DNA from: Gelidibacter mesophilus DSM 14095
GTDB lineage: Bacteria > Bacteroidota > Bacteroidia > Flavobacteriales > Flavobacteriaceae
Direction of reading: 5' to 3'
Length of the DNA: 64,000 bases
NCBI RefSeq assembly: GCF_000423005.1
Contig: NZ_AUHD01000001.1
Location: 558,001-622,000 of the forward strand
A program made the position numbers and the translations under genes. Shown here piece by piece: positions 40,355-41,852 of this stretch. Position 1 is the first letter of the stretch; each line of letters starts with the position of its first letter. The notes under the pieces were generated by a model that saw only the letters and a program-made list of their open reading frames with translations, was not told where the DNA came from and did not search any database.

Positions 40355-40388
40355 CCATCAACATTGATTTTGTGTTGATGGTTTTTTT
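40355..40388 (+). terminator. Terminator of carB
   Basis: CCATCAACA/TGTTGATGG, a 9-bp perfect stem with a 9-base loop, then seven T residues. Confidence 0.88.
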
Positions 40389-41100
40389 ATGCAATGGAGG
40401 GAATGCTCATTAGGTACAAAAGTCCAATTAATATGGCAATCCCAAAACTAATCAGGGTTCCAATTAGTATATACTCTGTCAACTTACGTTCCTTTGATTC
40501 TTTAAGATCGCCAAACCGGAATACAGATTTAGCGGTGATCAGAAATCCTACAGCTTCCCAATGATTTAAGATCACGAAAACAAAAACCAGTACACGTTCT
40601 AAAATTCCTATATATTTTCCTGCATCTTTAAGTGATTCATTGCCTTCAGTTAGCTTTGAAATATTCCATTTTAAAAAGATGGTCTTCATAATGATGGATA
40701 CGGGAATGGTTAAGAACAATATACAGGTTAGGAGCAGAAGTGTTTGATCTGTAATTATGGCATCCAAATCAACAGTATTTGCTTCAAAAATCCAATAGAC
40801 AGCTAAAATGACCAGAATGTGTAACACTTGATCTACAAAGAATAATATCCGAATGGTCTTTTTCTTTTGGAGAGTGAGCTTTAAAGCGTCAATGATAAAA
40901 TGTGAGATACCAATGATTAGAATTAATGGCCATTTTGAAACATCCCATAGAATGAGAAACAATAAAACGATATGGATGAGTACATGCAGATAGAGCTTTG
41001 GTGATTTTAATTTTTTCTCCTCCTTTTCTTTGACCCAAGAATAGGGTTGAAGGAAGAAATCTCCAATAAGATGTGCGAGGATAATTTTTATCAGTATCAT
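40387..41100 (-). CDS. DUF3307 domain-containing membrane protein
   Basis: This 237-residue integral membrane protein has about seven predicted helices. It begins with the DUF3307 signature AHLIGDFFLQP (H10, D14), continues with LHVLIHIVLL (H39, H43), then GISHFIIDALKL (H67, D71). The spaced intramembrane His and Asp residues look like a metal site or active site rather than a plain transporter, recalling membrane-bound metal hydrolases; this is inference. Its start overlaps the stop of the SatD-family HTH gene by four bases, so the two are translationally coupled and probably work together. Expression should be controlled by the dyad array upstream of that gene. Confidence 0.82.
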   Translation of the reverse strand: MILIKIILAHLIGDFFLQPYSWVKEKEEKKLKSPKLYLHVLIHIVLLFLILWDVSKWPLILIIGISHFIIDALKLTLQKKKTIRILFFVDQVLHILVILAVYWIFEANTVDLDAIITDQTLLLLTCILFLTIPVSIIMKTIFLKWNISKLTEGNESLKDAGKYIGILERVLVFVFVILNHWEAVGFLITAKSVFRFGDLKESKERKLTEYILIGTLISFGIAILIGLLYLMSIPSIA

Positions 41101-41714
41101 GCGAGTAGCTGTGTTATTTTTTGACGATAAAGTTGTTCCAATTGCATAATGAGGTCCATATGCGCGCGTTTCTGCCTTCCGCTCACAGCATTTTGATTGA
41201 TGCCAATATGCTTACCAAGTTCTTCTTGAAGCGCCTGTGGTTGCTCCATATGTAATTTCACAATTTCAGCAGAATTAGGCGTCCAATCATCCATGATGGC
41301 TAAGGCTAGTTTAAAGTATAAATTAACTTCTTGATCAAATTTTTGGTTTGTGGTCTTGATTTTTAGATTGACTTTTTCTTTTTTTAAGTTTTCTAAAGTC
41401 TCGCCAGAAAATTGAAATGCTTCGCCGTTGGATTCTACAATACTTTTTCCACTAAATGTTTTTACGCCTATACCTATAGCTATTCTTACATCCAATCCTT
41501 TTATGGTTTTTATACAGGCTTTAATGTATATGGCCGCTTTAAGACTTTCAGCAATATCCTCTAGTTCCAATTGAAAGCTGTCGCCTCTATATATTTCCCA
41601 TTGAGCATCGTTTTGGGCACATGCGGCTAATGCTTCTCTTAAGGTAGAAAGCCATAGTTCAGGATTCTTGATGGATCTTGATTTTATAATGTCCCCGGTC
41701 AAAATACTTGTCAT
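41097..41714 (-). CDS. SatD-family protein: cyclase/palm-like N-terminus plus HTH
   Basis: This 205-residue protein is of the SatD type. The N-terminal ~120 residues resemble a class III nucleotidyl-cyclase/polymerase palm. They show SILTGDIIKS (D-I-x-x-S with Asp8), YRGDSFQLEL (Gly-Asp45 turn), VRIAIGIGVKTFSG (R-I-x-I-G-I-x), and NGEAFQFSGETLENL (compare G-x-x-V-N-x-A-x-x-L). The C-terminal part (ALQEELGKHIGINQNAVSGRQKRA) is a sigma-region-4/TrpR-like helix-turn-helix. So it may read or make a nucleotide and bind DNA. It overlaps the DUF3307 gene downstream, and four 28-bp spaced dyads lie directly upstream, probably its own operators. The function of the family is not established. Confidence 0.75.
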   Translation of the reverse strand: MTSILTGDIIKSRSIKNPELWLSTLREALAACAQNDAQWEIYRGDSFQLELEDIAESLKAAIYIKACIKTIKGLDVRIAIGIGVKTFSGKSIVESNGEAFQFSGETLENLKKEKVNLKIKTTNQKFDQEVNLYFKLALAIMDDWTPNSAEIVKLHMEQPQALQEELGKHIGINQNAVSGRQKRAHMDLIMQLEQLYRQKITQLLA

Positions 41715-41742: not shown

Positions 41743-41846
41743 TATCATCTCTATAGATGATAAATTATATTATCATATTTATATGTGATATTATTTATTA
41801 TCACTTTTTTAGATGATATTCAAATATATCATTTATTTCTAAGATA
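41743..41846. promoter_or_regulatory. Array of four 20-bp dyads with exact 28-bp period (operator array)
   Basis: Four units start at 41743, 41771, 41799 and 41827. Each begins TATCA and has an 8-4-8 dyad: TATCATCT-ctat-AGATGATA (perfect), TATCATAT-ttat-ATGTGATA (7 of 8), TATCACTT-tttt-AGATGATA (6 of 8), and TATCATTT-attt-CTAAGATA (degenerate). The spacers are 8-base AT-rich stretches. The array fills the gap upstream of the SatD-HTH gene and behind the thioesterase stop. Such spacing suggests cooperative binding of a dimeric HTH protein, most likely the adjacent one. Confidence 0.8.
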
Positions 41847-41852
41847 TACAAG

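Follow-up and report, generated by a model that had tools for sequence, protein, structure and literature searches.

The satD locus of Gelidibacter mesophilus: a predicted cyclase-type palm with a helix-turn-helix, a periodic palindrome array and a membrane partner

The satD locus and the SatD family

The stretch of DNA considered here, to which we refer as the window, comprises 64,000 nucleotides of Gelidibacter mesophilus DSM 14095 (contig NZ_AUHD01000001.1, positions 558,001 to 622,000). On its minus strand it carries satD and, overlapping it by 4 bp, the gene for a membrane protein that we call the partner, with a series of palindromes and a putative promoter upstream of satD. The features are as follows, in positions of the window.

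41097 to 41714, minus strand: satD, an open reading frame for a palm plus helix-turn-helix (HTH) protein of 205 aa (family PF16264 by way of its relatives; model pLDDT 91.9, pTM 0.90)
41340 to 41714, minus strand: predicted palm domain of SatD, residues 1-125 (model, structure and profile matches, conservation)
Within the palm, minus strand: strands at residues 2-10, 39-42, 46-51, 75-83 and 117-120, and helices at 19-32, 54-69 and 98-113 (AlphaFold model)
41160 to 41282, minus strand: sigma-70-region-4-like HTH, residues 145-185 (HTH families in relatives, model, association with half-sites)
Within the HTH, minus strand: recognition helix, residues 174-183, with candidate specificity residues 176 and 179, and 175 also associated (association with half-sites)
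40387 to 41100, minus strand: partner gene, an open reading frame for a membrane protein of 237 aa with a 4-bp overlap with satD (linkage, all-helical model)
40744 to 41097, minus strand: DUF3307 domain of the partner, residues 2-119 (PF11750, E 2.4e-29)
40447 to 40632, minus strand: universal partner module, residues 157-218, kept in all branches, haloarchaeal and alphaproteobacterial ones included
41743 to 41762, no strand assigned: putative operator palindrome TATCATCTCTATAGATGATA, nearest satD (exact match, 28-bp period)
41771 to 41790, no strand assigned: putative operator palindrome TATCATATTTATATGTGATA (sequence, 28-bp period)
41799 to 41818, no strand assigned: putative operator palindrome TATCACTTTTTTAGATGATA (sequence, 28-bp period)
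41827 to 41846, no strand assigned: putative operator palindrome TATCATTTATTTCTAAGATA, with one mismatch, overlapping the promoter (sequence, 28-bp period)
41821 to 41851, minus strand: putative Bacteroidota promoter of satD, TTG (41851-41849), 20 nt, TATATTTG (41828-41821) (match to the consensus only)

The satD reading frame begins with an ATG at 41714, and the motifs that had been picked out in its product by the original prediction, at residues 8-12, 44-45, 77-83 and 97-107, are all present there (D8-I-I-K-S12, G44-D45-S46-F47, R77-I-A-I-G-I-G83 and G97-E-A-F-Q-F-S-G-E-T-L107). Among 37 relatives that share 33-83% identity, D8, S12, R43, G44, D45, S46, Q48, G81 and G83 are invariant, as are E94-Q101, S103, G104 and W144. 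When the comparison was widened to 108 distinct proteins, these fell into a branch of 88 that resemble the window protein and a distant branch of 20 classical SatD proteins, whose motifs read GDVxxS ... TITLGDEFQG ... MMGxGLTxAR. The two branches align over their entire length (hhalign E 4e-31) and have D8, S12, G44, D45, Q48, G83 and G97 in common; K111 and W144 are nearly always kept in the classical branch, and K111 is near-universal. The conservation of D8 and D45, which the original prediction had singled out beforehand as a point on which it could fail, is complete in all 107 distinct relatives whose sequence extends over both sites, the sole sequence of the 108 without them being a truncated one that begins past both residues.

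The assignment to the SatD family, also part of that prediction, is upheld through the relatives, since PF16264 is matched by 35 of the 37 aligned sequences (best E 5e-11) and its cut-off is exceeded by orthologues at the same locus; in a Pfam search with the single protein, the window SatD itself falls below the threshold of the model. The window protein has the length of the PF16264 proteins, their succession of GDxxxS, GD.FQ and G motifs and their C-terminal HTH, and the GD-x-x-x-S and GD-[SE]-F-Q motifs of the family are found in its relatives as well. Searches of Pfam, NCBIfam, PHROGs and PADLOC with the window protein returned just weak HTH-like or sigma-like matches, a PADLOC match to Cmr1 being dismissed as sub-threshold noise. 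No relative came from a sequence search of solved structures, and no SatD was found in phage genomes with a query from the classical branch. We have seen satD in Bacteroidota, Alphaproteobacteria and haloarchaea; in the clade of the window its neighbours are carB, rmuC and a thioesterase gene, and neither these neighbours nor the PADLOC search gave any positive sign of an anti-phage role. The family is named after the sat operon of Streptococcus mutans. In the literature searched, which was covered in part, SatD appears only as an acid-tolerance name (PMC10326533).

A palm of the cyclase type

The AlphaFold2 model of SatD, built from the alignment (pLDDT 91.9, pTM 0.90), orders residues 2-120 as strand-helix-strand-strand-helix-strand-helix-strand, with further helices after them. 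The residues at the metal positions, D8 on strand b1 and D45 at the b2-b3 turn, are placed by the model such that they would lie near one another in space. Foldseek, run against solved structures, ranked GGDEF domains, class III adenylyl cyclases and GTP cyclohydrolase III highest, with the mCpol of Panoptes (9pd0) at rank 49. VIA-align gave Z values of 9.9 for the GGDEF domain of DosC (118 residues aligned, 2.7 A) and for bPAC, a light-activated adenylyl cyclase, 9.7 for Cmr2 and for GTP cyclohydrolase III, and 9.6 for Rv1264, all of which are to be read as tied. A search of viral structures returned GGDEF-like matches alone, none of them significant. The cyclase or polymerase palm first proposed by eye, for which a model lacking such a fold had been named as the other point of failure, is thus matched by a confidently predicted ferredoxin-like palm with likenesses to GGDEF, class III cyclase, Cas10 and GTP cyclohydrolase III structures, and we consider it very likely that the N-terminus of SatD has this fold.

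Profile-profile comparison (hhalign) of SatD with class III cyclases scored 45.8 with both pairs of aspartates in register; none of 60 column shuffles went beyond 18.3, and the reversed profile scored 11.8. With the palm alone the comparison had a probability of 92%, and the C-terminal part of SatD did not match the cyclase profile. Because the score lies so far above the shuffles and the palm-limited probability is of this order, the palm can be regarded as real and as probably homologous to the cyclase palms; the original prediction had allowed for convergence, which the comparison of profiles disfavours, and its two metal-position aspartates are both in register with those of the cyclases and universal in the family. 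The likeness to class III cyclases (PF00211) accordingly extends to palm topology, equivalent placement of the aspartates and profile similarity, but the b4-a4 region is shorter in SatD and a short HTH takes the place of sensor domains. The analogy drawn from class III motifs holds for the palm, the aspartate pair and the profile; it weakens at G-x-x-V-N-x-A-x-R, the Asn of which falls on position 101 of SatD (varying as Q, I, V or T) and the Arg on position 105 (E, R, D or K). Since these transition-state positions are not conserved, synthesis of ordinary cAMP or cGMP by SatD is doubtful.

GGDEF domains (PF00990) provide the top structural matches and share the GD[SE]F turn, and hhalign sets K111 of SatD on the Lys of the "AKxxGRN" end of GGDEF; the near-universal occurrence of this residue suggests a GGDEF-like phosphate site. 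The two differ in that the profile score is lower (29.5, as against 45.8 for the class III cyclases), in the DNA-binding domain of SatD, and in the replacement of the first Gly of GG[DE]EF, the turn reading RGDSF in the window and LGDEF in the classical branch. GTP cyclohydrolase III is a tandem enzyme of two palms. It has in common with SatD a palm with a metal site (VIA Z 9.7) but has no HTH. In one clade of Flavobacteriia with arrays of 29-bp period (Aureibaculum, Christiangramia, Ulvibacter), the palm of SatD has an insertion before strand b4.

Taken with the pair of aspartates, the fold makes it likely that the palm binds an NTP. As fold and conservation would have it, Mg-NTP would be held at D8 and D45, with K111 on the phosphates. 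One may instead suppose that the palm is a degenerate scaffold for dimerisation and SatD a simple autorepressor without a nucleotide ligand, given that catalytic residues besides the aspartate pair vary and that DNA binding by itself would account for the array and the helix co-variation described below. We consider this improbable, as D8, D45, G44, Q48, G83 and G97 are kept beyond what a scaffold would lead one to expect, and across branches that are otherwise little alike.

The palindrome array and the helix-turn-helix

The array upstream of satD in the window consists of four 20-bp palindromes that start every 28 bp (at 41743, 41771, 41799 and 41827). In 107 regions upstream of satD, self-matches of 5-mers numbered 974 at lag 28 and 524 at lag 29, with overtones at 56 and 58; lags on either side had about 60, and a control set of 260 upstream regions about 50. 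For inverted 5-mers the maxima are at 13 and 15 bp. When lags of 20-39 were tested, the best was 28 or 29 at 102 of 111 satD loci; among these are plasmids of Halorientalis, Natronosalvus, Sphingomonas and Agrobacterium (two haloarchaeal, two alphaproteobacterial), the arrays of which have half-sites quite unlike the others. The loci surveyed come from Bacteroidota, Alphaproteobacteria and haloarchaea. Clades differ in their period, some having 28 bp and others 29 bp. The tandem palindrome pattern is restricted to the region upstream of satD in all five satD genomes searched (that of the window and four related ones) and had no match in eight genomes of family members without satD; a reversed control pattern had none in the genome searches.

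Evidence that SatD reads this array comes from 74 arrays to which a half-site was assigned (automatically, some of the arrays being mixed). By normalised mutual information with the half-site, residue 179 of SatD is first among about 170-186 columns, and after stratification for palm identity it has an odds ratio of 22.2, as against 7.5 for the next column. On a tree made from the palm alone, 10 of 18 half-site changes share branches with changes of residue 179 (p 9e-6), residues 176 and 173 coming second and third in this respect. The pairs are K with TATTCC, E with TATCG or TATCT, Q with TATAAG, H with TATTAG, and S or G with TATCA, pairings that fit chemical sense, and two loci outside the main Lys clade (L025 and L012) also pair Lys179 with TATTCC. 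The mean association over the whole HTH is no higher than that of the palm (p 0.18), and the claim of co-variation is for this reason confined to positions of the recognition helix. Since the half-site tracks residues of that helix, SatD very probably binds the array in its own promoter, to judge from sequence comparison. The C-terminal HTH of the original prediction is real according to the HTH families found in relatives and the model, and the direct DNA output that it envisaged has gained strong sequence support from the array and the recognition-helix co-variation.

A few arrays combine half-sites. At locus L011 (1367-1497), two TATTCC and three TATCA palindromes lie upstream of satD in one 28-bp register, and the arrays at L047 and L050 look mixed too; it is plausible that all three are intermediates in a switching of operators.

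It could be argued that the repeats work at the RNA level, as hairpins in a leader, and not as DNA operators, as three of the four palindromes in the window would fall within the transcribed leader. This is hardly credible in view of the strict 28/29-bp period, the tight association with HTH residues 173, 176 and 179, the short, AT-rich arms and an Rfam search that found nothing.

In the window, the outermost palindrome sits in the spacer of the putative promoter, TTG-N20-TATATTTG, and the remaining three lie downstream of it, an arrangement that suggests repression of satD. The pattern TTG-N17-23-TAnnTTTG was found in 33 of 107 satD upstream regions, 26 times within the array, three times upstream of it and four times downstream. 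As the array overlaps the promoter both here and in relatives of the window, autorepression that is relieved by a change in nucleotide would be the likeliest sign of regulation, though an uncertain one, because in other clades the promoter pattern is often not found or lies elsewhere.

The membrane partner and the candidate switch

A gene on the same strand directly follows satD, usually overlapping it, in 124 of 125 loci (some of which represent one genome twice), the exception, L129, being a truncated locus. The DUF3307 domain of the partner, with conserved H10, D14, Q18, H39, H67, D71, Q91 and H94, is missing in the classical SatD branch, where the partner is often a protein of ~106 aa made up of the C-terminal module alone, for which Pfam gave no match. 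This module, marked by G165, E168, R169, K191, R195, Y210, G214 and S218, also follows satD in Halorientalis (with DUF3307) and in Natronosalvus, Sphingomonas and Agrobacterium plasmids. Because it recurs without DUF3307 in the classical branch, DUF3307 is an optional fusion, and the unit is that of array, satD and membrane module. The predicted model of the partner is all-helical and had no match in the PDB (best VIA Z 6.5, under the trusted level); rows for structures like ion channels were treated as helical coincidence, and searches of Pfam and of structures found no known nucleotide-binding domain in it.

Several further observations concern the partner and its distribution. The conserved H, D and Q residues of DUF3307 lie in membrane helices and are suggestive of a metal site, and the domain also matches phrog_2470, a family of phage membrane proteins. 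On a Halorientalis plasmid (L180, 3974-5391), satD and a DUF3307 gene overlap by 4 bp behind an array of 29-bp period, which suggests inter-domain transfer or great age of the unit. On the Agrobacterium plasmid pAt (L182, 3655-8549), the satD pair is near genes of toxin-antitoxin character (HEPN/nucleotidyltransferase, antitoxin and HipA-domain genes), and the annotated start of the partner seems too far downstream.

The reading that we favour is that of an autoregulated one-component switch, in which a palm that binds Mg-NTP would control satD and its partner; to the chain as a whole we give about an even chance. The C-terminal HTH would sit on the palindromes spaced 28 or 29 bp apart in its own promoter, the step with strong sequence support, and control would cover a single operon, satD and the membrane-protein gene that follows. 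The active sites of class III cyclases and GGDEF domains form between two protomers, and a nucleotide would for this reason most likely set the pairing of SatD dimers along the array. By analogy with those palm interfaces, the level or identity of the NTP could thereby be turned into cooperative occupancy of the promoter; that nucleotide binding regulates occupancy on DNA seems to us evenly poised. What the operon produces quite probably has its effect at the membrane, by way of the partner.

The main alternative to this nucleotide sensor makes SatD a synthase, with a cyclic or linear nucleotide from the palm gating the membrane partner, much as in mCpol/2TMb, and the HTH controlling expression only. 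In Panoptes, mCpol makes 2'3'-c-di-AMP, which restrains a membrane effector (PMC12657230). Like SatD, mCpol is a palm protein of small size that is always paired with a membrane protein (PMC12657230), but SatD has in addition an HTH and an operator array, and its partner is all-helical, with no b-barrel of the 2TMb type seen. The structural matches to Cmr2/Cas10 and, at rank 49, to mCpol, the obligate partner, the universal metal aspartates and the closeness of LGDEFQ in the classical branch to GGDEF can all be brought forward for a synthase. Against these, the mCpol profile is not matched (hhalign probability under 1%, a weak test with a profile of three short sequences), the class III Asn and Arg positions are unconserved, R or L stands in place of the first Gly of GG[DE]EF, the searches revealed no known nucleotide-binding domain in the partner, and the anti-phage families of PADLOC are unmatched, all of which makes a synthase somewhat unlikely and the autoregulated sensor the preferred account.

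A regular array, a DNA-binding protein and a membrane protein in one unit, present on several plasmids, also call to mind a centromere-like or anchoring site, as in plasmid partition, at which filaments of SatD would hold the DNA at the membrane by way of the partner and autoregulation would be secondary. The unit, however, is mostly chromosomal, beside the housekeeping genes carB, rmuC and thioesterase, occupies a single site per genome, is missing from many relatives and comes with neither an ATPase nor a filament protein, and we consider anchoring very improbable. A more tentative extension of the favoured sensor reading would see in array, SatD and partner a cross-domain signalling unit with the palm as the direct sensor of a transcription factor. 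Dimers of SatD would form a polymer on the array and trap nucleotides at the palm-palm interfaces between adjacent operators; the nucleotide state, read out as filament assembly on DNA, would then govern a membrane effector or transporter of a new type. We hold this to be possible but less likely than not.

Cyclase-HTH fusions and the SatD family name are already known. In the CHD-LuxR regulators of mycobacteria, a cyclase homology domain is fused to an HTH (PMC3466318). These are multi-domain proteins, and their likeness to SatD is that of a cyclase-type domain joined to an HTH. We know of no CHD-LuxR regulator that is paired with a membrane protein in a module of two genes or has a 28/29-bp array. 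The literature searched, which was covered in part, gave no description of the SatD palm fold, the operator array or the partner module.

The palm fold is best known in enzymes that make cAMP, c-di-GMP or cOA. If the reading favoured here is true, SatD would represent this fold turned into a minimal gene switch, one for which the DNA target, the single regulated operon and the specificity code (residues 176 and 179) could be read from sequence, and for which a single small protein and a 110-bp DNA would suffice to test binding, ligand and function directly.
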